Positions 1-12,219 of a stretch of DNA of 12,622 nt are shown here, piece by piece (the first letter of the stretch is position 1; each line of letters opens with the position of its first letter). Below the pieces are notes generated by a model. The model was given only the letters and a program-made list of their open reading frames with translations, was not told the DNA's origin and ran no database searches. Location of the stretch: assembly GCA_025924845.1 (NCBI GenBank), contig JAICHN010000106.1, positions 1 through 12,622 of the forward strand, in the 5' to 3' direction. A program made the translations under genes and the position numbers. Source of the stretch: Chloroflexota bacterium. Its GTDB lineage: Bacteria; Chloroflexota; UBA5177; JANWHV01.

Positions 1-1259
1 CCAAGATCGGACGCTACCGCCCCGAGATTGCCCAGTACGACGGCGATGCCCCGCCGGTCCTCCAACGTCCGGTGCAGCGCCAGGGCCTCCTCATACAGGA
101 CCACCGCCCGCCCGTGATCGCCCTGGACGTTTGTCAGGTTCCCGGCCCCGGCCAGCACCCGCGCGCGAACCACCGGTGAGCCGCCTCCGCCTGCCAGCGC
201 CTCCTCCAGCCGGCGCCGTCCCTCGCTCAGGTAGCCACGCGTGAGCCAGAAGCGCCATAGCGACCCCGCCAGCCGCAGCCCTTGTTCAGCGTCATCGCAT
301 TCCTGCGTCCAAGAGAGCGCCGCCCGCAGGTTGTCATACTCGACCTCCAGCCTGCCCAGCCACTCCCCCTGGTCCGGCCCTCGCAGCCGGGGTGCTGCTT
401 CCTCGGCCAGCACCACGTACCAGGCTAGATGCCGGTCCCGCACGCCCGCGCCTCCGCCCTCGGCGGTCAGCCGCTCGGCCGCATACTCCCGCACCGGCTC
501 CAGCAGCGCGTACCGTCCCTCCCCATCGCTCTCCTGCAGCCCCACCAGCGACTTGGCCACCAGGCCCCCCAGCAGCCCCGGCAGCGGCCAGCCCTCAAGG
601 GCCGCACCGCCGCACACCGCCTCCGCCCCGCCCAGCGCCCAGCCCCCCGCGAACACCGACAAGCGCCCCAACAGCAACCGCTCCGGCCGCCCCAGCAGGT
701 CGTAGCTCCAATCCAGCGTCGCCCGCAGGGTCTGCTGCCGAGCCGCCGCGTCCCGCGGCCCGTCCGCCAGCACTCCAAGACTCCGCTCCAGTCGCGCCAG
801 GATCTCCCCCAGCGGGAGGCTCCCCGCCCGCGCCGCTGCCAATTCGATGGCCAGGGGAATCCCACTCCGCTCGCGGCAGATTCGCACCACGGTCGCCGCA
901 TTCCCCGCGCTCAACGTGAAGTCCGAGCGGCATGCCCGTGCCCGCTCCACGAACAGTCGCACCCCCTCATACTCCGCCAAGGTCGCCGGTGCTTGCTCGC
1001 CGGCCGGGGGCAACACCAGCGAGGGCACCCGGTAGCTCATCTCACCCCTCATGCCCAGCCGCTCGCGGCTGGTGGCCAGCAGTTGTAGGCGCGGACAACT
1101 CCCCAACAACCCTGCCGCCAGTTCCGCGCAGGCTGCAGACAACTGCTCGCAATTGTCCAGTACCAGCAGGAGGCGCTTGTCCTGCAGGTAACCAGTCAGC
1201 GTCTCCAGGGTGCCGCGGCCCGGTTCCTCGCGCAGCCCCAATGCCCTGGCCACCGCCTG
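1..1259 (-). pseudogene. C-terminal part of frameshifted NB-ARC/TPR regulator (partial at left edge)
   Basis: This is the downstream part of the regulator that starts at 2311, read in a different frame. The minus-strand frame whose codons occupy 1257-1259, 1254-1256 and so on stays open to the window edge. It gives a normal NB-ARC continuation: QAVARALGLREEPGR, a Walker B stretch LLLVLDNCEQL near 1140-1165, ATSRERLG, and IPLAIELAAARAG. TPR-like helices follow toward position 1 (EGRRRLEEALAG, RAVVLYEEALALHRTLED). The upstream frame reads GLAGRRWPGHWG instead of the expected GLAGQAVARALG, so one base appears to be missing near 1260-1265. A sequencing error would make this an intact gene; a real deletion would leave this part untranslated unless it reinitiates. 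In intact relatives this half binds and hydrolyses ATP and senses ligands or partners. The C-terminus lies outside the window. Confidence 0.8.
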
Positions 1260-2311
1260 CCGGCCAAGCCCGGGTCGGCGAGGGCCGCAAGCTCCACCAG
1301 CCAGGCCCCGTCCGCGTAGCCCTCCAACAACTCAGCTGCCGCCGCCAGTGCCAACCTGGTCTTGCCGACGTCCCCCGCTCCCACCAGCGTCACTAATGGC
1401 GCCTGGCGCAGCAATTCCCCCACCGCTGCCAGCTCCAGCTCCCGCCCCACGAAGCTGCTCAATTGCGGCGGCAGGTTGGTCGGCGGCACGACCGGAGACC
1501 GCAAGGGTGGGAAGGCGGCGAGCCGAAGCGGGTGCAAGACCTGGTAGATGGGCTGTGGTCGTTCCACCACGCTCAGCGGGTGCCGACCTACCTCACGCAG
1601 CCGCAACCCCTCGGGCAGGGCGCCCTGCACTTCGTTCACGGTAGCCTGGGTCACCAGGATCTGGCCGGGGTGGCCCAGTCGGGCCAGCCGCGCCGTCCGC
1701 TGCCGGGCCGGGCCGGCGTAGTCGCCGGCGCCCGGCGACGCCCAGCCGATATGCAGCGCCAGGCAGATCGGCAGTGCCTGCTCGCCCAGCGCCTGCTGCA
1801 GGGCGCAAGCGGCCGTCAGGGCGTCGCCGATACGGGGGAAGATGCACACCGCTCCGTCTGGACCGTCCGGGGAGTCCACCGTTCGCCCCCCATGTCGCGG
1901 CACCACCTGCCGCAGTGCCAGAGCCAGTCGCGAGTGCATGTGCCCCAGCGCTGGCGGGCGCTCAAGCTGGGGCGCGGGGACGGACACCGGCGCGCAGACG
2001 AGGAAGGTGAGGACTCCGGCCGGCGGCGAGGGCGCCGGCTGCGGGACGGGGGGACCGGCTCGTGCCGCCTCGCGGCAGGCGGCCGACAGGTGATCACGCT
2101 CAGAAGGCGCCAGGCCTAGGGCATCGGCCAGGGCGCCCACCAGCAAGTCGAGCGTGGCCCGCCGCGGCAGGTAGCCTCGTCCCGCCTCCAGATTGCTAAT
2201 CGTGGTAACGCTCACTCCGGCCCGCTCGGCCAGGGACTCCTGGGTAAGCTCGGCGCACTTGCGGCTGCGCACGAGCAGGGCGCCGAGTGGGTTGCGTCCT
2301 GCAGTCGCCAA
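1196..2311 (-). CDS. N-terminal part of HTH / cyclase-like / NB-ARC transcriptional regulator (frameshifted)
   Basis: The protein has 371 residues from a TTG start; no ATG fits upstream of the HTH. Residues about 10-62 form an XRE-type helix-turn-helix (ELTQESLAERAGVSVTTISN). Residues about 100-262 resemble a class III nucleotide cyclase domain: GHPGQILVTQAT and LREVGRHPL are typical. The usual FTDIEGST metal-binding segment is replaced by LVCAPVSVP, so catalysis is unlikely. After the linker PPTNLPPQLSSFVGRE comes an NB-ARC P-loop, GAGDVGKT at 311-318, where D replaces the common G but the GxxxxGKT pattern survives. After about residue 350 the frame drifts (RRWPGHWGCARN) and stops at 1196, while the true continuation lies in another frame. 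The gene is divergent from the monooxygenase at 2550. Its family comprises cytoplasmic transcription regulators; the target is unknown, and the neighbouring monooxygenase is an obvious candidate. Confidence 0.8.
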   Translation of the reverse strand: MATAGRNPLGALLVRSRKCAELTQESLAERAGVSVTTISNLEAGRGYLPRRATLDLLVGALADALGLAPSERDHLSAACREAARAGPPVPQPAPSPPAGVLTFLVCAPVSVPAPQLERPPALGHMHSRLALALRQVVPRHGGRTVDSPDGPDGAVCIFPRIGDALTAACALQQALGEQALPICLALHIGWASPGAGDYAGPARQRTARLARLGHPGQILVTQATVNEVQGALPEGLRLREVGRHPLSVVERPQPIYQVLHPLRLAAFPPLRSPVVPPTNLPPQLSSFVGRELELAAVGELLRQAPLVTLVGAGDVGKTRLALAAAAELLEGYADGAWLVELAALADPGLAGRRWPGHWGCARNRAAAPWRR

Positions 2312-2549: not shown

Positions 2550-4061
2550 ATGTCAGAAACGCACACACTGACCGGATCCCACGCCGAATCCGGCGCGCAA
2601 ACGCCGGAACATTTCGACGTGCTGATCGTCGGCGCGGGCATCTCCGGCGTCGGCGCGGCCTATCATCTCACCGAGCAATGCCCCGGGACCACATTCGTAG
2701 TGCTTGAAAGTCTGGCAAGCTACGGCGGCACCTGGCTGACGCACCGCTATCCCGGCATCCGCTCCGACAGCGACCTCTACACCTATGGCTACCGATTCAA
2801 GCCCTGGACCAGCGCGCCCATCGCCTCGGCTGCCGAGATCCTCAAGTACATGGGCGAGGTGATCGAAGAGAACGGCCTGGGCCGGCATATTCGCTACCAC
2901 CACCGAATCGACTCGGCCCGCTGGTCCAGCCACGAGCAGCGTTGGACGATCGAGGCGACGCGGACCGACACGGCCGAGGCGGTCCGCGTCACCGCCAATT
3001 TCCTGTGGATGTGCCAGGGCTACTACCGCCACGCGCCAGGCTACACGCCGCGGTGGACGGCTATGGGGCGCTTTACGGGCACCTTAGTCCATCCCCAGAC
3101 CTGGCCCGAAGACCTGGACTACAAGGGCAAGACGGTGATCGTGATCGGCTCCGGCGCCACCGCCGCGACCCTCATCCCAGCCATCGCCGACCATTGCGCC
3201 CATGTCACCTTGCTGCAGCGTTCGCCGACCTACTACCTCACGGACCGAAACGCCAACGAGTTGGCCGACACGCTTCGCGAATTGGACGTGCCGGAGGAGT
3301 GGATCCACGAGATCGTGCGCCGCAAGATCGTCCACGACCAGGACGTCTTCACGCGTCGCTCGTTGGAGGAGCCTGAAACGGTCAAGCAAGAACTCCTGGC
3401 CGGCATCAGCGCCTTCATTGGCCCGGAAGCGACGGCCGCTCACTTCACGCCGACCTATCGGCCCTGGCGCCAACGAATCGCGGTCGTGCCGGACGGCGAC
3501 ATCTTCCAACGTGTTATGGCCGGCAAGGTCTCGGTGGTCACAGACCACATCGATCGGTTCACCGAAACTAGCATCCTCTTGCAGTCGGGCGCGGCGCTGG
3601 AGGCGGACCTCATTATCACCGCGACCGGCTTCAACCTCAACGTCCTTGGCGATATCGTCATCGCCATTGACGGCGAACCGCTGGAGTTCGCCAATACCGT
3701 CACCTACCGTGGCATGATGTTCACCGGCGTTCCCAACCTGGTCTGGGTGTTCGGCTACTTCCGGGCCAGCTGGACCTTGCGCGCCGATCTGATCGCCGAT
3801 TTCGTCTGTCGCTTGATCAATCATATGAAGCAGCGCCGGGCGCGCAAGGTGACCGTGGCGTTGCGCGCGCAAGACAGGGACATGAAGCTGTCGTCTTGGA
3901 TCGATCCGGAGAACTTCAATCCAGGCTATCTGCTGCGCGGCATGCACCTCTTGCCCAAGCGCGGCGACAAGCCGGAATGGCAGCACACCCAGGACTACTG
4001 GGCTGAGCGCAAGCAGTTTCCCGCCATAGACCTCGACGACGAGGCATTTGTGTACGAATGA
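2550..4061 (+). CDS. EthA-like flavin-containing (Baeyer-Villiger type) monooxygenase
   Basis: The 503-residue protein is close in length to EthA-type enzymes (about 490). These are FAD- and NADPH-dependent monooxygenases that insert one oxygen from O2 into ketones or sulfur compounds. An N-terminal FAD-binding Rossmann motif GAGISGVG follows FDVLIV. GGTW and RYPGIRSDSDLYTYGYRF are highly typical of the family. The Baeyer-Villiger fingerprint FxGxxxHxxxWP is complete (FTGTLVHPQTWP). It is followed by the NADPH Rossmann motif VIGSGATAATL and by ITATGFNLN near the C-terminal third. The frame extends further upstream, but the ATG at 2550 was chosen because family homology begins just after it and GGAAAG (2534-2539) lies upstream. 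No signal peptide is seen, so it is a cytosolic enzyme. The substrate cannot be read from sequence. Unlike mycobacterial ethA it is not beside a TetR gene but beside the broken multidomain regulator. Confidence 0.9.
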   Translation: MSETHTLTGSHAESGAQTPEHFDVLIVGAGISGVGAAYHLTEQCPGTTFVVLESLASYGGTWLTHRYPGIRSDSDLYTYGYRFKPWTSAPIASAAEILKYMGEVIEENGLGRHIRYHHRIDSARWSSHEQRWTIEATRTDTAEAVRVTANFLWMCQGYYRHAPGYTPRWTAMGRFTGTLVHPQTWPEDLDYKGKTVIVIGSGATAATLIPAIADHCAHVTLLQRSPTYYLTDRNANELADTLRELDVPEEWIHEIVRRKIVHDQDVFTRRSLEEPETVKQELLAGISAFIGPEATAAHFTPTYRPWRQRIAVVPDGDIFQRVMAGKVSVVTDHIDRFTETSILLQSGAALEADLIITATGFNLNVLGDIVIAIDGEPLEFANTVTYRGMMFTGVPNLVWVFGYFRASWTLRADLIADFVCRLINHMKQRRARKVTVALRAQDRDMKLSSWIDPENFNPGYLLRGMHLLPKRGDKPEWQHTQDYWAERKQFPAIDLDDEAFVYE

Positions 4062-4209
4062 TCGGGCCGGCGCTGCCTCGGCCGGCACCTTCCGGCGTGT
4101 GATTGAAAACCTTCAAATACTATGTGGCCCGTGCAATCTCGATAAAGGTGCGGACCTTTAGCGGCCCGAACCGAAGGCGTCCACGGGTATTGGATACATC
4201 AACGAAGAA

Positions 4210-4236
4210 GGGGCCTGCGGCGCAGGCCCCTTTCCT
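4210..4236 (-). terminator. Hairpin terminator downstream of the tRNA-Pro fragment
   Basis: GGGGCCTGC (4210-4218) pairs perfectly with GCAGGCCCC (4222-4230) around a 3-nt loop. On the minus strand it is followed by a T-rich stretch (TTCTTCGTT) and lies about 20 nt past the tRNA 3' end, as expected for the original tRNA terminator. On the plus strand it is followed by TTTCCT, so it could also end monooxygenase transcripts coming from 4061. Confidence 0.75.
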
Positions 4237-4250
4237 CCGGTGGACGATAG

Positions 4251-4291
4251 TCGGGGCGAGAGGATTCGAACCTCCGGCCTTCTGAACCCCA
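4251..4291 (-). other. Attachment site: displaced 3' part of tRNA-Pro(GGG)
   Basis: Read on the minus strand, this is the 3' part of a tRNA. It holds the end of an anticodon loop with TGGGG (U33, anticodon GGG, G37), the anticodon 3' stem TCAGA, the variable loop AGGCC, a T arm (GGAGG, loop TTCGAAT, CCTCT with one G-T pair), the acceptor 3' strand CGCCCCG and discriminator A. CCA is not encoded. Beyond position 4292 nothing pairs with TCAGA and no D arm or 5' acceptor strand (CGGGGCG) follows. The homology stops exactly in the anticodon loop, a common crossover region for tyrosine recombinases. I infer that this is an att site with the chromosome on the low-coordinate side and the element on the high-coordinate side. 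The intact tRNA gene should then lie at the far element end. Confidence 0.75.
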
Positions 4292-4305
4292 TTCGGCCCA
4301 GGCTT

Positions 4306-4441
4306 CTGGTAGCTGGTAGTATCTCATGGTAGACCATAGTACATCACCAGAGAAAATAGATCGATACAACCCTTCCTTGGTGGTAACTGGTAGTAGCCCG
4401 TAGTAGGCCGTTTTAGCCCCGTCGTAGTAGTCAAATAGTAG
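4306..4441. repeat. Cluster of GGTAG/GTAGTAG repeats next to the att site (possible integrase arm sites)
   Basis: Short direct repeats crowd this segment: CTGGTAG at 4306-4312 and 4313-4319 in tandem, ATGGTAG at 4326-4332, CTGGTAGTAG at 4387-4396, CGTAGTAGG at 4399-4407, CGTAGTAG at 4423-4430 and ATAGTAG at 4435-4441. All have the same orientation and lie within 150 bp of the tRNA fragment. Arm-type integrase sites or excisionase sites are typically arranged this way. No protein assignment can be made. Confidence 0.5.
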
Positions 4442-4606
4442 TTGGGAACGGCACGGAATCTCTCCGAACACCGGGCTAGGGCACGGCGGTTAGCCGCATC
4501 GTGGGCTGGCCGGGTACGAGGGAACTACCCTACACCCTGGCCGTCCACCGCGTGGTGGACATGCCGCTTGACGTGGCCGGGGGGTGCTGACAACACGATT
4601 GCATAC
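4442..4606. other. Non-coding stretch without recognised features
   Basis: This lies between the repeat cluster and the inverted repeats. I see no open frame with a plausible ribosome site or family similarity, no RNA gene and no clear promoter. A lone TTGACG at 4568-4573 has no matching -10 box. Confidence 0.4.
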
Positions 4607-4712
4607 GCATCCGCGATGCATTATCGTGAGATGTAGATAGTGTGTTCTACGCTGTCGCAGACACGACAAATCGCGGATGCTCTGATTGGCGTCTCGACAT
4701 CCGCGATTTGTC
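4607..4712. repeat. 15-bp perfect inverted repeat plus a third copy of its core
   Basis: GACAAATCGCGGATG at 4665-4679 is mirrored exactly by CATCCGCGATTTGTC at 4698-4712, with an 18-bp spacer. The 10-bp core CATCCGCGAT occurs a third time at 4608-4617, inside the small palindrome GCATC-CGC-GATGC (4607-4619). A further TGTCG/CGACA pair lies at 4653-4668. The set is upstream of the excisionase-like genes and the replication block, so it may be an operator array or iteron-like replication site. The spacer and arm length argue against a simple terminator, and there is no T tract. Confidence 0.6.
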
Positions 4713-4740
4713 TCACGTTTCGGCCGGAGCAAACCAGCCG

Positions 4741-4801
4741 TTGTCGTACATTGTCCGACAAACGAATCATGGCACAGCCTGTTACAGGTGTCAACACCTG
4801 T
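4741..4801. promoter_or_regulatory. Palindromes upstream of the first HTH gene (candidate operators)
   Basis: ACAGGTGT-CA-ACACCTGT at 4784-4801 is a perfect palindrome with 8-bp arms, ending 53 bp before the GTG at 4855. Just upstream, TTGTC-C-GACAA (4751-4761) is symmetric, and TTGTCG (4741-4746) also pairs with CGACAA (4756-4761). Both sites are placed where a regulator of the HTH pair and the replication genes would bind. No convincing -35/-10 pair was found. Confidence 0.45.
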
Positions 4802-4854
4802 CTACACCAATGTCCGTACCGATGGTTGGGCTCTGGCCGGTTGGAGGACAACCG

Positions 4855-5070
4855 GTGAGACCACGAACGACCAACACGAGCGTACCGAAACTCGCGTACT
4901 CCAAACACGAGGCCGCGGCGGTGCTGGGCATCGGCCTGACGACGTTGCACCGCGAGATCGCCGCCGGCCACATCCGACCGGTGCGCTGTCGCAACCGCGT
5001 CATTATCGCAGCGAGCGAGTTACAACGGTTCCTGAATGAACGCGCCGGCGCGGCTCGGCAGGTGTCGTGA
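4855..5070 (+). CDS. Small excisionase-like helix-turn-helix protein
   Basis: The 71-residue protein starts at GTG, chosen because a strong GGAGG (4844-4848) precedes it by 6 nt; an in-frame ATG at 4822 lacks such a site. The body is one MerR/excisionase-like winged helix: LAYSKHEAAAVLGIGLTTLHREIAAGHIRPVRCRNRVIIAASELQ. This fits the HTH_17 pattern of an N-terminal helix-turn-helix followed by a basic hairpin and a residue-selecting SEL-type helix. Its stop codon overlaps the next gene's start (TGATG), so the two are probably translationally coupled. Lying at the att end of the element, it could direct excision (Xis) or regulate the replication block. Family knowledge gives DNA binding only; the exact job is inference. 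Confidence 0.75.
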   Translation: MRPRTTNTSVPKLAYSKHEAAAVLGIGLTTLHREIAAGHIRPVRCRNRVIIAASELQRFLNERAGAARQVS

Positions 5071-5288
5071 TGCCTGCCTCAGCGCGAGCGCACCTGCAAC
5101 CAGTGCCGGACAGCGAGCAACCAGCCGACGCGCCCACCGACGCCGTTTGGCTCACCGTGCCCGAGGCGGCACGCCTCTTGCGCGTGGGTGAGTCGCTGTG
5201 CTGGAAACTAGTTCGGGATCGTGCCATCCCCTCGCGGCGCATCGGCCGCTTGGTCCGTGTGCCGCGATCCGCAGTTGTCCCCGCGTAG
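5070..5288 (+). CDS. Second excisionase-family helix-turn-helix protein
   Basis: The 72-residue protein starts at the ATG that overlaps the preceding stop; a GTG one codon earlier is also possible. After a disordered N-terminus of about 27 residues comes a classic excisionase/HTH_17 domain: WLTVPEAARLLRVGESLCWKLVRDRAIPSRRIGRLVRVPRSAV. The domain ends abruptly at VPA, a few residues before the usual final helix (typically followed by W and a short basic tail), so the protein is slightly short for the family. The two tandem HTH proteins are different in sequence and may bind separate sites. A hairpin follows the stop at 5297-5321. The likely role is DNA bending in excision or regulation of the downstream primase gene. 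Confidence 0.8.
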   Translation: MPASARAHLQPVPDSEQPADAPTDAVWLTVPEAARLLRVGESLCWKLVRDRAIPSRRIGRLVRVPRSAVVPA

Positions 5289-5296
5289 AACGTCAA

Positions 5297-5325
5297 AAGC
5301 CGCCTTGGCGGGAGGCGGCTTCTGA
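5297..5325 (-). terminator. Hairpin between the HTH pair and the primase gene
   Basis: AAGCCGCCT (5297-5305) and AGGCGGCTT (5313-5321) form a 9-bp perfect stem with a 7-nt loop. On the plus strand there is no T tract after it, so it may act as an attenuator or transcript-processing hairpin rather than a full stop. On the minus strand it ends in CTTTTG, a better terminator tail, although no minus-strand gene is seen feeding into it. The strand choice is therefore uncertain. Confidence 0.4.
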
Positions 5326-5403
5326 AGGCGCGGGCTGGATACGATTCGCTCCCGTCAGTGTACCACGCCCGCGTTACGCCCACCTGAATGATGAGGACGT
5401 AGC

Positions 5404-6327
5404 GTGTTAGTAGACAGTAATCTAGTACACATCCCAACCGACTTGCGAGCCCTGCCCAACTGGGTGTGTCACCGCGACAAACAACCGTTCAATCCCCGTA
5501 CCGGCTACGGCAACAGCCACAGTGACCCACGCACCTGGACCACGTTCCCCGAGGCGTACGCCGCCTGGCATCGCGGCTATCACGGCCTGGGCTGCGCGAT
5601 CACCGTGCCCTACGTGGGAATCGACTTCGACCACTGCGTAGATCGTGCCACCGGTGCTATTGACCGCTGGGTAGCCGAGTGGCTGGCCCGCCTGGACAGC
5701 TACAGCGAGTACAGTTTCAGCGGGACCGGCATCCACACCTGGGTACGCGCGGCGCTCGATGCAGCGTGCAAAACGCCTCGGGCCGAACTGTACGGCCGCG
5801 CCCGCTTCTTCACGATGACCGGGAACCGGGTACTGGGCACACCCGCTGCGATTGAGGCGCGACAGGACGTAGTAGACGCGCTGGTAGCGGAATTGCGGCC
5901 CGTGCGCAGCGGCGCGGCGATAACGGAGGTGTGGACCGGGACGGTAGGTGGTAGTCCGGCCACGCTGCGGGAGCGAGCGGCGGCCGGACGTATCCGCCGC
6001 GTCACGCTCTCGTTGCTGGACTCGACTGGAGCGGCCGGCTACGGTTCCGCCAGCGAGGCTGATTCGGCGCTGGCCTGTGCCCTGGTGGGCGCGGGCCTGA
6101 CCGCCGACGAGGTGTTGGCGCTGTTCCTCGACAGCCCACGCGGCGGCGACGCGATACGGCGTAAATCGGCGCGGCATGGGGAGAGCTACCTACGCCGGAC
6201 GGTGGAACACGCGGCGCGGCACGTGGGGCCGGTTCTGGCGCCGCTCGGAGGGTTACGGGTGCGGCTGGGCAACGGCGCCGCTGTGGCGTGGCGGCTGGCC
6301 GGACGGCCGCATGGGGGACAAGTATGA
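5404..6327 (+). CDS. Primase-polymerase of the AEP superfamily (bifunctional DNA primase/polymerase)
   Basis: The 307-residue protein starts at GTG; TGAGGA at 5392-5397 is the likely ribosome site. AEP primase-polymerases on mobile elements make primers and extend DNA to start replication. The N-terminus matches this fold: IPTDLRALPNWVCHR opens it and GIDFDH (residues 72-77, D74 and D76) supplies the metal-binding acidic pair. SFSGTGIH (104-111) carries the conserved histidine, and RFFTMTGN (134-141) is the third motif. These agree with element-borne PrimPols of the NrS-1 type. The C-terminal half (about 190-290) is helical, with DSALACALVGAGLTADEVLALFLDSP resembling the PriCT-like domains found in such proteins. 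It overlaps the helicase gene by 4 bp, as expected for a replication operon. Confidence 0.85.
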   Translation: MLVDSNLVHIPTDLRALPNWVCHRDKQPFNPRTGYGNSHSDPRTWTTFPEAYAAWHRGYHGLGCAITVPYVGIDFDHCVDRATGAIDRWVAEWLARLDSYSEYSFSGTGIHTWVRAALDAACKTPRAELYGRARFFTMTGNRVLGTPAAIEARQDVVDALVAELRPVRSGAAITEVWTGTVGGSPATLRERAAAGRIRRVTLSLLDSTGAAGYGSASEADSALACALVGAGLTADEVLALFLDSPRGGDAIRRKSARHGESYLRRTVEHAARHVGPVLAPLGGLRVRLGNGAAVAWRLAGRPHGGQV

Positions 6328-8087
6328 ACACGATGCACGCTCTCCCCGAGCCGACACCGGGCGCCCAGGTAGGCGCCGTGCTGTTGACCGCCACGGCCGC
6401 CACGCGGGACGAGGACGGCATTACCGCAACCGTGCAAGCGGTCAACGGGCACGTGCTGTGGTCGGACGTTGCCACGCTCACCACCGCCACGGGCCGAGCC
6501 GACTGGGCACGTCAGGCCGGGCCGCGTACCGGACTGGCGACTGACGAGATGGAATCGGGATTGCTGGCCCTCGTGCCGTTGATCGACGCCGCGCTACGCG
6601 GTCTGCCCGTCCTGGAGTGGCGGCCCATCGTGCCGTTGGGCGCGGCGTTGCCTGCCATGCCGTTTCCGGTTAAATCGCTCCTGGCACCCACCCTGATCAA
6701 TTTCGTCAACGCGGTAGCAAACGCTTACCGGGTGCCGGCCGATTTCGCGGCTGCGGGCACGTTGGGCACGCTCTCCGGTGCCATCGGGCATCGGCGCGTT
6801 CTCCACCTTGGGGGTGAACTCTACGCCTCCGCCTGCCTGTGGATAGCCGCCGTTGGGCGGAGCGGCAGCGGTAAAACGCCGCCGATTAAACGAGGCGTGC
6901 GACCGTTGCGGGCACTTCAGGACGCGGCGATCAAACGCTATCAGGAGAAACAGAAAGAGTATCAGTCCGATCTGGCGGAATGGGAAGGCGGCAAGCCCGG
7001 CGCACGCGGCCCGAAGCCCGAGGCGCCCACCCTGCCCCGCGTGCTGATCAGCAACATTACGATTGAATCGCTAGCGTCCGACCTCCGCCACGCTCCGGCC
7101 GGCGTGCTGCTGGTGCGCGATGAACTCGCGGCCTGGCTGGCCGCGTTCGACAAATACAGTAGCGGCGGGGGAGGCAGCGACCGGGCCGCGTGGCTGGAAA
7201 TCTGGTCACACGAAACCATCGATAACTCGCGGAAAACGGGAGAGGATCGGCTGATCTACGTCCCGAATCCCTACGCGGGCGTGGTAGGCGGCATTCAGCC
7301 GAACCGCTTGCATGAGTTGATCGGTACTCAAGACGACGGAATGGGCGCGCGGGTACTGCTGTGCTACCCTGATGCACCGATTGCCCCGTTGTCGGACGCC
7401 TCGATTGATCACGAGGTGGAGGCCGCGTACGGCGCACTGATCAACACACTGTGGACGGCGCCTTATGACGAGCGCGCCGAACCGATCCGGCTGTCGAATG
7501 AGGCGCGACGCCGTTACCGCGAACGAGACGCCGATTTCAAGCGGCAGTGGCCGGCCGACGTATCGGCCCGTCTGGACGAGGCGCTGTCCAAGCTGTGTAT
7601 CTACGCGGGCAGGCTCACCAATATCGTGATGACCGCCTGCGAGGCGTCAGGATTCGATGCGTCGGATACCGACTGTGTCGGAGCGGCTTGGGAGATGATC
7701 GGCTACTTCCGCCATTCCGCGATGCGGATGCACGACGGCGGCGGCGAACGGCACGCACAGGCGCGGCGAATCCTGGCCTGGATCGAGAGAGGCAGGCGCG
7801 AACAATTCAGTCTCGCTGAACTACGCGACGACATGCGCCGCACTCTGGAACGCGGTGACGACCTCGACGCCCCGCTAGGCGTGCTGGAGGAACACCACTA
7901 CATTCATCTCGTGCCGGAACCATCCCGATCCGGCGCCGGTCGGAAAGCCTCTCCGCGCTACGCGGTGAATCCCGCCATATGGCGGAAGAATCCTAAAAAT
8001 ACGGAAAATAGCCTGCTTGGGGCGAATAAATCGGATAAAACGTATTATTCCGCCACTATAGGACAGCGCGAACGGGTAACACTGTGA
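6324..8087 (+). CDS. DUF3987-like replicative helicase/ATPase
   Basis: The 587-residue protein starts at an ATG that overlaps the primase stop (ATGA), with GGGGGA just upstream. The N-terminal 95 residues are unassigned. From about 110 the chain matches DUF3987-type ATPases of mobile elements: a Walker A GRSGSGKT (178-185), a helical insertion, a Walker B VLLVRDE (261-267) and a sensor-like GGIQPNRL (323-330). GMGARVLLCYPD (339-350) is the usual Arg-containing motif. A C-terminal winged-helix-like segment (ILAWIERGRREQFSLAELRDDM) precedes a polar tail. This class is thought to unwind DNA or load replication proteins beside AEP primases; that role comes from context and family. The last 80 bp are unusually AT-rich for this gene. 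The stop overlaps the next start. Confidence 0.85.
   Translation: MNTMHALPEPTPGAQVGAVLLTATAATRDEDGITATVQAVNGHVLWSDVATLTTATGRADWARQAGPRTGLATDEMESGLLALVPLIDAALRGLPVLEWRPIVPLGAALPAMPFPVKSLLAPTLINFVNAVANAYRVPADFAAAGTLGTLSGAIGHRRVLHLGGELYASACLWIAAVGRSGSGKTPPIKRGVRPLRALQDAAIKRYQEKQKEYQSDLAEWEGGKPGARGPKPEAPTLPRVLISNITIESLASDLRHAPAGVLLVRDELAAWLAAFDKYSSGGGGSDRAAWLEIWSHETIDNSRKTGEDRLIYVPNPYAGVVGGIQPNRLHELIGTQDDGMGARVLLCYPDAPIAPLSDASIDHEVEAAYGALINTLWTAPYDERAEPIRLSNEARRRYRERDADFKRQWPADVSARLDEALSKLCIYAGRLTNIVMTACEASGFDASDTDCVGAAWEMIGYFRHSAMRMHDGGGERHAQARRILAWIERGRREQFSLAELRDDMRRTLERGDDLDAPLGVLEEHHYIHLVPEPSRSGAGRKASPRYAVNPAIWRKNPKNTENSLLGANKSDKTYYSATIGQRERVTL
7981..8054. repeat. AT-rich stretch bounded by an inverted repeat at the 3' end of the helicase gene
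   Basis: GGCGGAAGAAT (7981-7991) and ATTATTCCGCC (8044-8054) are inverted repeats of 11 bp with one mismatch. The 52 bp between them are rich in A and T (CCTAAAAATACGG, GCGAATAAATCGG), in contrast with the GC-rich coding around them. They encode the polar tail of the helicase-like protein. It could be a DNA-unwinding element, an internal promoter or simply a permissive tail. Confidence 0.4.
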
Positions 8088-8593
8088 CCGGCGCCGCGCT
8101 GCTTGACACTCTCGCGGCTCGCGGGGTGGTCTGTGTGATCAGCGAGGCCGGCGGGCTCGAACTAGACGCCCCGCCCGGCGCCCTCGACACCGAGCTACTG
8201 GAGGCTCTCCGTTCGCACAAAGTGGAGGTGCTGGCCCTGCTGAGCGAACAAACATCACACGCCGGAGAAACGTCGCAGCCGTCACAAACGCCGGAAACGT
8301 CGCAGGCTCTCCCGCCCACTGCACAAAACACGGATGCCTATGTGGAGTCCATCGCGCTCACCATGGCGATGCTGGCGGCAGCCGAGCGACTGGCGGCCGT
8401 CAGCCCACCGACCGACCCTAGCGAGTGGGACGCGGCGCACCAGCGGTACCAGGCAGCCGGTAGCGCCCTGCTCGACTGGATGGCCGCCACGAAGAGCACC
8501 GACCCGGCCATGGTGGATGAGACCTGGACGGCCCTTCATGCCCGCCTGGAGGCGCTGCGGAGCGACTGGCGGGCACGAGCGCAACCCCACTGA
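8084..8593 (+). CDS. Small protein with TubC_N-like N-terminal domain
   Basis: The 169-residue protein starts at a GTG that overlaps the previous stop. Residues 1-55 (LLDTLAARGVVCVISEAGGL, LDAPPGALDTELLEALRSHKVEVLALL) match the pattern of the TubC N-terminal docking domain: a helix, a beta hairpin with the DAPPGAL turn, then helices ending in LLALL. That domain was first described as a docking piece of nonribosomal peptide synthetases, yet similar short domains occur on replication-related proteins of mobile elements. A linker rich in ETSQ/PSQ repeats (56-85) leads to a helical C-terminal part (85-169) of no recognised family. Its place between helicase and SSB suggests a protein-protein adaptor in replication; this is inference. 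Confidence 0.65.
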   Translation: MTGAALLDTLAARGVVCVISEAGGLELDAPPGALDTELLEALRSHKVEVLALLSEQTSHAGETSQPSQTPETSQALPPTAQNTDAYVESIALTMAMLAAAERLAAVSPPTDPSEWDAAHQRYQAAGSALLDWMAATKSTDPAMVDETWTALHARLEALRSDWRARAQPH

Positions 8594-8655: not shown

Positions 8656-9018
8656 ATGTACCCCACGTCAAGCCCACAAGACAGCGCCTATCTCACCGCC
8701 ATCGGCACGGCATCAGCCGATGCCGCGATAGGCATGACCAAGAACGGCAAGCCCTATGCCCGCTTCACCCTGCGGGCCGAAGTAGCCAAGGAAACACTGT
8801 GGCTCTCGATAATCGCCTTCGATGCCGCGTTGGTGGAGGCGGCGCGGCCCGTCCGCAAAGGGGCGCGGATAGAGGCGGCCGGCCGCTTGCAGGTGCGCAC
8901 CTGGACCGGCACGGACGGCAAGGAGCGGACCTCGGTCGGTATCGTCGCGGCGGCTATCGACCTGCTGAGCCAACCGACCGAACCCGAGGACGACCCCTAC
9001 GACGGCCTACCGTTCTAA
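8656..9018 (+). CDS. ssb: Single-stranded DNA-binding protein
   Basis: The 120-residue protein is preceded by AGAGAGGACAGG and starts at ATG 8656. The OB-fold pattern is clear: IGTASADAAIGMTKNGKPYARFTLRA, WLSIIAFDAALVEAA, VRKGARIEAAGRLQVRTWTGTDGKERTSVGIVA. The chain ends in an acidic tail with the protein-recruiting tip PEDDPYDGLPF, close to the canonical DDxPF ending. SSB coats unwound DNA during replication and recruits partners through this tip. It is shorter than housekeeping SSB (about 160-180 residues), as is usual on mobile elements. It follows the TubC_N-like gene after 62 bp, which hold an imperfect GC-rich hairpin (CCGGCC at 8606-8611 with GGCCGG at 8628-8633). Confidence 0.9.
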   Translation: MYPTSSPQDSAYLTAIGTASADAAIGMTKNGKPYARFTLRAEVAKETLWLSIIAFDAALVEAARPVRKGARIEAAGRLQVRTWTGTDGKERTSVGIVAAAIDLLSQPTEPEDDPYDGLPF

Positions 9019-9583
9019 GGAAGGGAGGAACCATGCACGCCACGGCGCCTCGATTGCGCGAACCCCTGCCCCATGGCCTGGATGCCCATTCCGGCGCTTC
9101 CATCACAGCCGCCCCTGTACAACCCCAGCCACGGGCCGCCGGCGGCCAAGCAGGCGAGCGGGTAGCCATCACGGGCAGCCGGGAACGCACCGACCGAGCG
9201 ACCATCGAGCAGGCCATAGCGGCCCTGCCCGACGGAGTGACCGTCATCACCGGCGGCTGTGCCGGTCCCGACCTCTGGGCCGAAGCGGCGGCCAGACGGA
9301 CGGCGGCCGGCGCGGTCGGATCGGTCAAGATGGCCTGGAGCGTGGCTACCGCCGCATCGGCCAGCACGGCAAGGCGCCCGGTCGCATGGCCCAAGGCATC
9401 CCTCTTGGGGGCGCGATATGTCTCCAGGAAGGTCGAATCGGCCAGCCACTTATAGGCCGTCCGTTCGGGCACGTTCGCGGCCTTGCAGGCATGGGCAATG
9501 GTGGGCGCGGTGAGCAGGGCCACCACGAAGGCGTGCTGACGGGGCGAAAGGCTGCCGCCTTGTGCATCGTCCAGAGTGTGCAT
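8954..9583 (-). pseudogene. Phage-type HTH protein (terminase small-subunit-like), truncated 3' end
   Basis: The start is the ATG at 9583, with GGGAGG 4 nt upstream (minus strand). Residues about 10-100 resemble the HTH proteins of phages and elements often placed near small terminase genes: LSPRQHAFVVALLTAPTIAHACKAANVPERTAYKWLADSTFLETYRAPK, then the helix ATLQAILTDPTAPAAVRLAAA. After about residue 100 (near 9285-9270) similarity ends, and the frame runs through the reverse complement of the SLOG gene until a stop at 8954. The extra residues look like antisense of another gene rather than protein. I therefore infer that the true 3' end was lost at a junction near 9270-9310. It is divergent from the gene at 9628, 44 bp apart. 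Confidence 0.6.
9033..9455 (+). pseudogene. SLOG-domain (DUF2493-like) protein, truncated
   Basis: The 141-codon frame has an excellent ribosome site (GGAAGGGAGG) before ATG 9033. Residues 43-91 carry the start of a Rossmann-like SLOG domain of the DUF2493/DprA-related type: RVAITGSRERTDRATIEQAI, then VTVITGGCAGPDLWAEAAARRT, with GSR at 48-50 and GGCAGPD at 74-80. These motifs normally bind nucleotide-like ligands. The second half of the domain is missing: after about residue 91 the frame reads through the antisense of the opposing HTH gene. It continues the plus-strand run from SSB with a 14-bp gap. The protein, if made, would lack half of its fold. Confidence 0.65.
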
Positions 9584-9627
9584 GATGCCTCCCGTCATTA
9601 TGGTAAAGCCTGGGGAGGGTACACGCA

Positions 9628-9929: not shown

Positions 9930-11000
9930 ATGGCCAACCTCGGCCATCTCTACGGCGGGCTGAGCTATGCCGAACGGGCCCGGCTGATTGCCCGCTGTGT
10001 CCGCACCGGGGACTTCTCTACGCTCGACCAGGTGCGCTATACGGTGCCCCAGGGTGAAGGCGAGCATTTTAACCGGGTGATGGCCACGGTTCGCCGGCAC
10101 ACCAGCTATGGGCACTGGATAGCCGATAGCCTGCGGTTACAGGCGGAACGAGACGAGGCCCGCCTGTTGCTGGCCGTCACGAACCGGGCCCGCCGGCAGC
10201 TTGCCTGGCTGACGACCTGGCACGTGTGGAAGCTGGTGGGCTATCCGGTGACGGCAACGGAGTATGCCCACGTGGTGGAGATGGACAAGGCGCGGCCCGA
10301 GCCGCTGGGCGCCTTCGCGCTCCACCTATGGGAGATGACCGCCGACGAAGCCGAGCAGGCAGGCAGGCGCCCGGACCTGGTGGACTGGCTGCGGAGCACC
10401 GAGGACACCGACGACGACGCGGGCGAAGCCCAAGCCGCCGCGCTGATTGGCGCGGCCATCCAGCGGGGAGCGTTACCGACCCCCACACCGAGCGAGGAGG
10501 GATTGGCCCTGCCCTGGGGCGCCTGCAGGGCCTGGCTGATGCCGGGACGCACCGAGCACGAGCCGTATGGCCCCGAATGGCATATCCCCCTGGTGGAAGC
10601 ATTGGGCGGCACCTGGGCCAAGTGGGAGATACACCCGGATAGTGAACAGGAGGCGGTCAGAGCACGGCGCGACTTGCTGGCCGCTACTCTGGCAAGCGTG
10701 GCGGCGCTCGATCTTGCCGCCCTGCCAGGCAGCATCCATCCCCCGGCCAGTCTGGACGACCAGGCGGCCCAACAGGCGGCAATCCAAGCGGCATGGCCCT
10801 GGAAGGATGATGTATGGCGCGGACGAGCCGCTTCCATCGCCGCCCAGCAGGCAGGCAATCTGGCCCAGTGGCGAGCCGTCCTGACCGTGCTGGAGGAATC
10901 ACGCATCGAGGACTTCGCGGGGGAAGACCCCATCCCCGAAGGGTTGCGGGCCAAGCTGGACGCGGTAGAGGCGGCCATGGACCGGGTAGCGGCGGTCTAG
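9930..11000 (+). CDS. Unknown 356-residue protein, probably shortened by an amber codon
   Basis: I do not recognise this family. The ATG at 9930 follows the previous stop by 2 bp. The chain is rich in A, W, E and R. It has an early segment LSYAERARLIARCVRTGDFSTLDQVRYTVPQGEGEHFNRVMATVRRH, a helical stretch with WLTTWHVWKLVGYPVTATEY, an acidic loop STEDTDDDAGEAQ, and a C-terminal helical part (IEDFAGEDPIPEGLRAKLDAVEAAMDRVAAV). No signal peptide, membrane segment or known motif is seen. The stop is TAG at 10998-11000, but the same frame continues for 37 codons without interruption to a TGA at 11112-11114, with acidic, coding-like sequence (EDEPDFEPTEELAAKLL). An original length of about 394 residues is likely. 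Confidence 0.6.
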   Translation: MANLGHLYGGLSYAERARLIARCVRTGDFSTLDQVRYTVPQGEGEHFNRVMATVRRHTSYGHWIADSLRLQAERDEARLLLAVTNRARRQLAWLTTWHVWKLVGYPVTATEYAHVVEMDKARPEPLGAFALHLWEMTADEAEQAGRRPDLVDWLRSTEDTDDDAGEAQAAALIGAAIQRGALPTPTPSEEGLALPWGACRAWLMPGRTEHEPYGPEWHIPLVEALGGTWAKWEIHPDSEQEAVRARRDLLAATLASVAALDLAALPGSIHPPASLDDQAAQQAAIQAAWPWKDDVWRGRAASIAAQQAGNLAQWRAVLTVLEESRIEDFAGEDPIPEGLRAKLDAVEAAMDRVAAV

Positions 11001-11114
11001 GCACTGGCCAAGGACAGCGAAGACGAGCCCGACTTCGAGCCCACCGAGGAACTGGCGGCCAAGCTGCTCGACGATACCCGGCACATCCTGGGGCCAAGCA
11101 ACGGGGACGACTGA
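11001..11114 (+). pseudogene. In-frame continuation of the 9930 gene past the amber codon
   Basis: Thirty-seven codons directly after TAG encode ALAKDSEDEPDFEP, then TEELAAKLLDDTRHILGPSNGDD, and end at TGA 11112-11114. Base use matches the preceding gene (G or C at most third positions), and no start codon or ribosome site opens the segment separately. A CAG-to-TAG change would explain it. Other genes nearby end in TAG, so general amber recoding is unlikely. Confidence 0.55.
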
Positions 11115-11516: not shown

Positions 11517-11762
11517 TTACGCCGCCCGATCCGCCTCTACATGAGACACCGTGACGGAGCGCGCGGCGCCCGCGAAGGCATCTAGGGCGAGCGCCAGAGC
11601 GTCACGAGGACTAGCGGCGGCCACGGTCAAGGTAACGCCGATCCGGCCCTGCCCGTAGGCGACTGCCGGGTGATACGCGGCCAAGGCGTCAACGAGTCCA
11701 TCGGCGACATCATCGTGAGCCGCCTGGGCCTGTCCCTCGATCCGCACGGTCCATTCATTCAT
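11517..11762 (-). CDS. Small protein of unknown function, third gene of a HicA-like operon
   Basis: The 81-residue protein starts at an ATG that overlaps the stop of the HicA-like gene (ATGA). The sequence alternates strands and helices: WTVRIEG, DDVADGLVDALAAYHPAVAYGQGRIGVTLTVAAASPRDALALALDAFAGAA, SVTVSHVEAD. It has the look of a small ferredoxin-like or ACT-like alpha/beta fold; similar short proteins are common on actinobacterial elements, with no known function. No catalytic residues stand out. It is not a HicB antitoxin, because the HicB fold motif with its C-terminal DNA-binding part is absent. Confidence 0.6.
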   Translation of the reverse strand: MNEWTVRIEGQAQAAHDDVADGLVDALAAYHPAVAYGQGRIGVTLTVAAASPRDALALALDAFAGAARSVTVSHVEADRAA

Positions 11763-11974
11763 GGGGTGCTCCTTTCCGGCCAGGGCCAGATAAATCCCTG
11801 GCGGCGCAATTCGGCGATCAGATTGGCGAGCGAGCGGTAATCGGAAGGAGTGCCGGACCCTATTACGATCTGCTTGGCCCGATCGGGGGGAATGAACTTG
11901 GGATGACCTTTCGTCGTGCGAGTCACGATGAACCCCTGTTCACGGGCCGCTTGCTCGATGTCCCGCAGGTTCAC
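11759..11974 (-). CDS. HicA-like small RNA-binding protein (toxin family)
   Basis: The 71-residue protein starts at a GTG overlapping the upstream HTH stop (GTGA) and overlaps the downstream start. It has the HicA double-stranded-RNA-binding-like fold: MNLRDIEQAAREQGFIVTRT, then TKGHPKFIPPD, and QIVIGSGTPSDYRSLANLIAELRRQGF. His24 in TKGHPKF corresponds to the histidine needed by HicA mRNA interferases. The overall length is close to the family. HicA toxins cut translated mRNA and are normally paired with HicB. Here no HicB is visible and the partner gene upstream is a MerR-like HTH, so the toxin role is possible but not established. The tail WPWPERSTP is an addition. Confidence 0.7.
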   Translation of the reverse strand: MNLRDIEQAAREQGFIVTRTTKGHPKFIPPDRAKQIVIGSGTPSDYRSLANLIAELRRQGFIWPWPERSTP

Positions 11975-12219
11975 CCGCCCATGCCCTCGGGCGCCTCGTA
12001 GCCCTCGGGCAGGGGTGACGCCTGCTTGAAGGTAGCATCACGTTCCATCAGGTAGGTGTGAAGCAAGCGCCGTGTGGTGTATTGTTCGCGCCCCAGTCTG
12101 TGAACCGCGAGACGGCCATTAGCCGCCTGGTGCCGAAGCGTATTGACCGACAGGCCGGACAATTCAGCGGCCCGTACCAGGCTGATTGGCTGATCGGACT
12201 CTTCAAGCTGTGTAACCAT
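11971..12219 (-). CDS. MerR-like helix-turn-helix regulator, first gene of the operon
   Basis: The 82-residue protein starts at ATG 12219, with GGAGGG 3-4 nt upstream. Its DNA-binding part is SLVRAAELSGLSVNTLRHQAANGRLAVHRLGREQYTTRRLLHTYL, the winged-helix pattern of MerR/excisionase-type proteins (LSVNTLRHQ as recognition turn, HRLGREQYTT as wing). The C-terminal tail (PLPEGYEAPEGMGG) is disordered. It sits in front of a HicA-like gene with a 4-bp overlap. It is divergent from the gene at 12405, with two identical-pattern palindromes in between, so self-regulation and control of the divergent gene are likely. It could act as an antitoxin, but no evidence of that is in the sequence beyond its position. 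Confidence 0.75.
   Translation of the reverse strand: MVTQLEESDQPISLVRAAELSGLSVNTLRHQAANGRLAVHRLGREQYTTRRLLHTYLMERDATFKQASPLPEGYEAPEGMGG

Follow-up and report, generated by a model that had tools for sequence, protein, structure and literature searches.

Insertion at a tRNA gene is a common and well-understood kind of integration, and among the actinomycetes there are small elements, of which pSAM2 is the type, that integrate into a proline tRNA gene and carry their own replication protein and an excisionase. The locus described in this work is likened to these elements by description, and it differs from them in that no conjugation or integrase gene was seen. The specific target considered here, tRNA-Pro(GGG), is known from the Sinorhizobium phage phiLM21, whose attP region is reported to include the 3'-terminal 45 bp of that gene (PMC12429752); integration of the phage in the Sinorhizobium tRNA-Pro(GGG) reconstitutes the tRNA (PMC5537653). 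Both the mechanism and the target gene are already known.

The 12,622-nt stretch of DNA analyzed in this work (the window, from now on) resembles phiLM21 and the prophage phiSM11-017 in that the target is tRNA-Pro(GGG) and that its core corresponds to 44 nt of the same part of the gene. However, the two Sinorhizobium elements are tailed-phage prophages of an alphaproteobacterium and have known integrases, whereas the window displays replication genes and neither an integrase nor clear virion genes. A broader comparison is provided by the Islander collection, which counts 3760 islands carrying 3' tDNA fragments, 159 carrying 5' fragments and 2083 with an anticodon-centered attP (PMC4383910). 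Islander-type islands of sub-site A share with the window a 3' fragment displaced to one end of the island and a cross-over in the anticodon loop (PMC4383910), although the Islander rule needs both ends of the island and the window shows one end only.

The tRNA-Pro(GGG) fragment and its chromosomal flank

A sequence-only reading of this DNA had placed a tRNA-Pro(GGG) fragment on the minus strand at 4251-4291, and it was right about the isotype, the anticodon and the strand. When the 41-nt part was searched in 400 Chloroflexota genomes (allowing up to three mismatches), four of them contained it, and in all four the match fell inside an intact tRNA-Pro(ggg) called by ARAGORN, which confirms the isotype and anticodon assignment. 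In addition, the fragment is identical in 43 of its 44 bases to the intact tRNA-Pro(GGG) L088 of the Chloroflexota genome G056, which, as in the window, has no encoded CCA. The extent initially claimed was real but incomplete: the minus strand of 4251-4291 covers T33-GGG-G37 through A73, and three more bases match beyond it, up to G30 at 4294. The complete fragment (minus-strand letters of 4251-4294, GAATGGGGTTCAGAAGGCCGGAGGTTCGAATCCTCTCGCCCCGA) therefore corresponds to positions 30-73 of the tRNA, numbered back from the discriminator A73, and extends from the final two bases on the 5' side of the anticodon stem, through the GGG loop and the remainder of that stem, to the variable loop, the T arm and the 3' strand of the acceptor stem. 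As a 44-nt 3' fragment whose upstream limit falls in the anticodon stem/loop, it has the form expected of an anticodon-loop sub-site.

No tRNA was called in the window by ARAGORN or by Rfam (E up to 1), which is what half a gene should give. The fragment folded alone gave no signal (z 0.81), and there were no exact matches to a 40-nt core in genome contigs or to a 37-nt core in viral contigs. A chance resemblance is not a concern, since a single, exact copy of the 13-nt T-arm core is present, against an expectation of 0.09 at up to two mismatches. The absence of the 5' half, also noted in the earlier reading, was borne out: the best local alignment between the 80 nt adjoining position 30 and the intact 5' half scores 14, a value reached by 240 of 1000 shuffles. 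The notion of a decayed tRNA gene was rejected on this basis. GC content dips locally at the junction (0.585-0.587) and shows no step between both sides. The features on either side of the break are collected in Table 1.

Table 1. Features of the window around the tRNA-Pro(GGG) fragment.
Feature	Coordinates	Strand	Evidence
Chromosomal flank: flavin-containing monooxygenase (CzcO-like)	2550..4061	+	Pfam PF07992/PF00743; homologues up to 88%
Hairpin, probable terminator serving both the tRNA and the convergent monooxygenase gene (bidirectional)	4208..4232	.	Perfect 12-nt inverted repeat; interrupted T tract
3' part of tRNA-Pro(GGG), shared att core, here very probably attR; no encoded CCA	4251..4294	-	43/44 identical to intact L088; ARAGORN calls the intact gene
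Element-side flank replacing the tRNA 5' half	4295..4306	-	C at position 29; T in 56/61 att fragments
Ten GTAG words in one orientation (TGGTAGCTGGTAGTA..., TGGTAACTGGTAGTAGCCCGTAGTAG...), candidate arm-type binding sites of an integrase or excisionase	4307..4441	+	Word count vs shuffles; function inferred
Element: excisionase-family HTH_17 protein	4858..5070	+	PF12728; phrog_66; TIGR01764 29.5 bits (cut-off 28.8)
Element: second excisionase-family HTH_17 protein	5067..5288	+	PF12728; TIGR01764 40.0 bits (cut-off 28.8)
Element: DNA primase-like protein	5404..6327	+	phrog_13901 6.5e-38; phrog_1829
Element: DUF3987 helicase-like protein	6324..8087	+	PF13148 194 bits; phrog_2373
Element: small protein, TubC_N-like N terminus	8084..8593	+	PF18563 31.6 bits (cut-off 26)
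Element: single-strand DNA-binding protein (SSB)	8656..9018	+	PF00436; phrog_44

On the chromosomal side, the fragment is followed by a structure that had been taken for the natural terminator. What stands of this proposal is a strong hairpin with perfect 12-nt arms, included in a 61-nt region that folds at z = -3.85; on the other hand, its T tract is interrupted (TTCTTCGTT) and a consensus terminator scan over 4050-5420 found no terminator, the hairpin at 4208-4232 included. Beyond the hairpin, and convergent with the tRNA fragment, lies the monooxygenase gene, whose named relatives are mostly alphaproteobacterial; what points to a Chloroflexota host is the tRNA match, obtained in a search confined to that phylum. 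Homologues of 81-88% identity exist among protein sequences, and the top identity in the genome scan was 77% among the best 80 loci, which were mostly alphaproteobacterial as well. Matches were found in 2 of 400 genomes of the phylum and in 16 of 294 genomes of one class (best 74%), and none in sets of 1, 7 and 158 genomes (the 158-genome search was run twice, apparently on the same class, and is counted once). These genomes gave no close orthologue of the monooxygenase, the highest value being that 77% match among the best 80 loci, and this route did not lead to an uninterrupted tRNA gene at the same locus, that is, an empty site. Farther away on this side (3-2311, minus strand), a long HTH_31/AAA_16/TPR-type regulator is split across two frames near 1196-1253, which suggests a frameshift or a sequence error.

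The same half-gene in virus contigs

The informative comparisons came from IMG/VR, which was scanned with a pattern for the 3' half of tRNA-Pro(GGG) (GAATGGGGTTC...GGTTCRAATCC). This yielded 78 matches in 77 stretches, 15 of them at an intact tRNA called by ARAGORN and 63 outside any intact tRNA. Two of these 63 fragments (L143 and L177) lie at a contig start and are uninformative, whereas the other 61 have at least 12 nt upstream, by which 52 are distinct. Because the pattern itself fixes positions 30 onward, only the upstream limit of the similarity is informative. T29 is retained in 56 of the 61 fragments, and partial pairing is kept at positions 27 and 28 in 45 and 35 of them, respectively; at position 26 and upstream the top letter is found in no more than 28 of the 61, although conservation continues there in the 15 intact genes. 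When a 5'-half pattern was used as a control, 20 stretches were recovered, of which 18 were complete tRNAs and two (L187 and L189) were 5' halves only. This indicates that the halves are not random contig breaks and that 3' halves dominate, in agreement with the Islander figures of 3760 (3') versus 159 (5') (PMC4383910).

The two exceptions deserve a brief description. In L163/L187 (IMGVR_UViG_3300017658_000027) and L189 (IMGVR_UViG_2837678835_000003, near 1559), the tRNA-Pro(GGG) 5' half only is present, and it stops within the anticodon loop or immediately past it. In the former contig an intact copy shares 42 nt with it, that is, the entire 5' half, and an integrase is encoded upstream of the intact copy. 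This contig is a case of the rare opposite polarity, in which the element supplies the 5' half.

Integrase-like open reading frames near the fragments were located with a profile that had been seeded with the L105 integrase (E up to 1e-5). Such a frame was found within 500 nt of 44 of the 63 fragments and anywhere in the examined stretch for 46, leaving 17 fragments with none. Ten of these frames were sampled with Pfam and eight passed PF00589 (six of eight at fragment loci and two of two at intact loci), the other two being one with the arm-binding domain only and one with no match at E 1e-4. For 30 of the 63 fragments, the integrase is no more than 500 nt from the core on its 5' side, corresponding to the element side of the window (right of 4294); an integrase within 500 nt on the 3' side of the intact tRNA, the arrangement required for the window element, was found at 5 of the 15 intact genes.

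The half-gene in L105 (IMGVR_UViG_3300047160_036011) is identical to that of the window in 42 of 44 bases and is placed 81 nt from an integrase frame, which gave a direct Pfam match of 38.3 bits, although an earlier PF00589 search of this record had missed it. No tRNA was found in the examined stretch of L105, and its half-gene looks like an attP. By eye, AGAAGNCTGGGC is common to the element-side flanks directly upstream of the core in L105 (2307-2318) and in the window (4296-4307, minus strand), and it is perhaps a common integrase-binding element.

Two further contigs display both ends of an element, in the pairing of intact tRNA and fragment foreseen by the sequence-only reading. The first, L178 (IMGVR_UViG_3300016457_000429; 10,235 nt), carries an intact tRNA-Pro and the 3' fragment at opposite ends, as 51-nt direct repeats at 39-89 and 10138-10188, 10.1 kb apart, with an integrase between them. 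The second is a 16,092-nt contig (IMGVR_UViG_3300019487_000760), represented by the stretches L172 and L182, which share 55 nt, one copy being intact and the other a fragment. Both are like the window in their tRNA-Pro(GGG) target, in the 3' fragment and in the break at the anticodon stem, and unlike it in that the integrase adjoins the fragment; moreover, none of the 12 element ORFs of the window matches the L178 or L172/L182 loci (E 1e-3). Taken together with the break in the window, these observations fit the proposal, already made in the sequence-only reading, of a boundary at the anticodon loop and of tRNA-Pro(GGG) as attB, since the same half-gene, with the same break, is found beside integrase-like genes in many virus contigs.

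The element side of the junction

The proposal that the fragment marks a chromosome/element junction was supported by the change in gene content across the break, from a monooxygenase on one side to excisionase-family, primase, DUF3987 and SSB genes on the other. Genes of this type (excisionase-family HTH, primase, DUF3987 and SSB) start at the att site, as in an integrative mobile element. The region 4296-4460 contains ten GTAG/CTAC words, against a mean of 3.7 in dinucleotide shuffles (both strands counted) and with none of 2000 shuffles reaching ten, for a motif that was picked after looking at the sequence; outside this region, no 165-nt stretch has more than five. All ten words are GTAG on one strand and lie within 150 nt of the core. 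Between this array and the first HTH gene, repeated GCATCCGCGAT / GACAAATCGCGGATG inverted repeats were observed (4607-4712), possibly operator or origin sites.

The primase, the DUF3987 gene and the gene that follows are open frames overlapping at their start and stop codons. No integrase-like ORF of at least 120 codons was found in the window, in which 8.3 kb of the element are visible, the element continuing past the window end. Among the window ORFs searched against family libraries, the only match to virion or packaging genes was a weak terminase-small-like one (phrog_4102, E 0.0029). Several features of the more distal part were also recorded. In 9033-9586, a SLOG-like gene on the plus strand (PF10686 at 24.2 bits, short of the cut-off of 28.2) has no end of its own and enters the antisense of the terminase-small-like HTH gene (minus strand) near 9330, where both genes look 3'-truncated, as after a deletion or a chimeric join. 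A 356-codon ORF in 9930-11114, of unassigned family, stops at a TAG (10998-11000), past which the frame, inspected by eye, remains open and coding-like as far as 11114; a nonsense mutation, a sequencing error or stop read-through are possible. Finally, a small phage-type protein of the phrog_2089 family (unknown function; HicA-like by eye) is encoded within 11759-12219 (minus strand), beside an HTH protein with a weak Cox-like match (phrog_575, E 0.00093).

The relatives of the element are known only as proteins without genomic context. Eleven homologues of the DUF3987 protein appeared among the candidates scored, ranging from one with two differences (record P0121, source lgn) through 70% down to 29% identity. 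The window protein itself had no match in viral contigs; its family alignment reached two distant loci there (31% identity) and gave three matches, also distant, in 400 Chloroflexota genomes. Three phage records matched the DUF3987 protein (25-29%), and 117 plasmid records matched the primase, all below 60%.

Proposed mechanism, alternative explanations and meaning

The observations at the junction are best explained by assuming that the 44-nt fragment is, with high probability, the attR site of an integrative element that uses the anticodon-loop sub-site. In the proposed mechanism, the attP of the element would duplicate the 3' part of the tRNA-Pro(GGG) gene of the host, and a tyrosine integrase, encoded outside the window, would exchange strands inside the anticodon stem-loop, the halves of the anticodon stem forming the inverted core sites. 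At the far end, the 5' half of the host gene would become joined to the 3' half of the element to give a working tRNA, while at the window end the displaced 3' half of the host would stay before the hairpin terminator and the monooxygenase gene. The original wording, that integration moved the intact tRNA, is not accurate in these terms, because the far-end copy would consist of the original 5' half and a 3' half from the element. We infer that the window element has an integrase and that an intact tRNA lies at its far end; no such tRNA was seen downstream, as the window comes to its end within the element. Similarly, the GTAG repeats are candidate arm-type sites and one of the HTH_17 proteins would be a putative excisionase. 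Several facts count against this explanation: no integrase was found in the visible 8.3 kb, although 30 of the 63 fragments, including those of L178 and L182, have one within 500 nt on that side; the arrangement needed here occurs at 5 of the 15 intact tRNAs; position 29 is C instead of the usual T; the GC content shows no step; and neither the far end nor an empty site was seen.

The lack of an integrase in the window can also be accommodated by a defective or remnant element, in which an old insertion later lost its integrase and far end. This possibility, a sub-case of the attR explanation that is not exclusive of it, is regarded as real but doubtful. The head-on fusion of the SLOG-like and antisense terminase-small-like genes near 9330 and the in-frame TAG at 10998-11000 may represent the damage expected in such an element. 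In contrast, the half-gene is still identical to a complete tRNA gene in 43 of 44 bases, the primase, the DUF3987 gene and the next genes are open and overlap at their start and stop codons, and a DUF3987 protein with two differences is present in P0121.

Two other explanations dispense with a site-specific insertion at this locus. An assembly chimera, in which the shared 44 nt served to link reads of an uninterrupted tRNA-Pro locus with a free or unrelated element, would be conceivable in what may be a metagenome contig, and 44 nt falls within the k-mer size of short-read assemblers. The paired structure of the L178 contig argues against it and makes it improbable; besides, a chimera through the core needs an element with the same tRNA half (attP), so that the identification of the att core would stand in any case. 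Even less probable, to the point of being hardly credible, is that an ordinary deletion or rearrangement, with no site-specific integration, truncated the tRNA gene. In its favor, the window shows neither integrase nor far end, but the break coincides with that of the 61 informative virus-contig fragments, and repeats and excisionase-family genes come directly after it.

Returning to an integrative element as the preferred explanation, it may be tentatively suggested that it represents a family of small integrative replicons not yet described, made of a pair of excisionase-like HTH proteins, a primase, a DUF3987 helicase and SSB, with no virion genes near the att end. Its host would be an unsampled one, perhaps of the Chloroflexota, and it would have its integrase at the intact-tRNA end and arm sites in the form of an unusually dense GTAG array. 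One boundary of a mobile element is fixed to within a few bases and its attB is named, and therefore the chromosomal genes (the monooxygenase and the regulator) can be separated from those of the element, and the target to be sought at the far end is known. Beyond this locus, the anticodon loop of tRNA-Pro(GGG) emerges as a site used repeatedly for integration in virus contigs from the environment.
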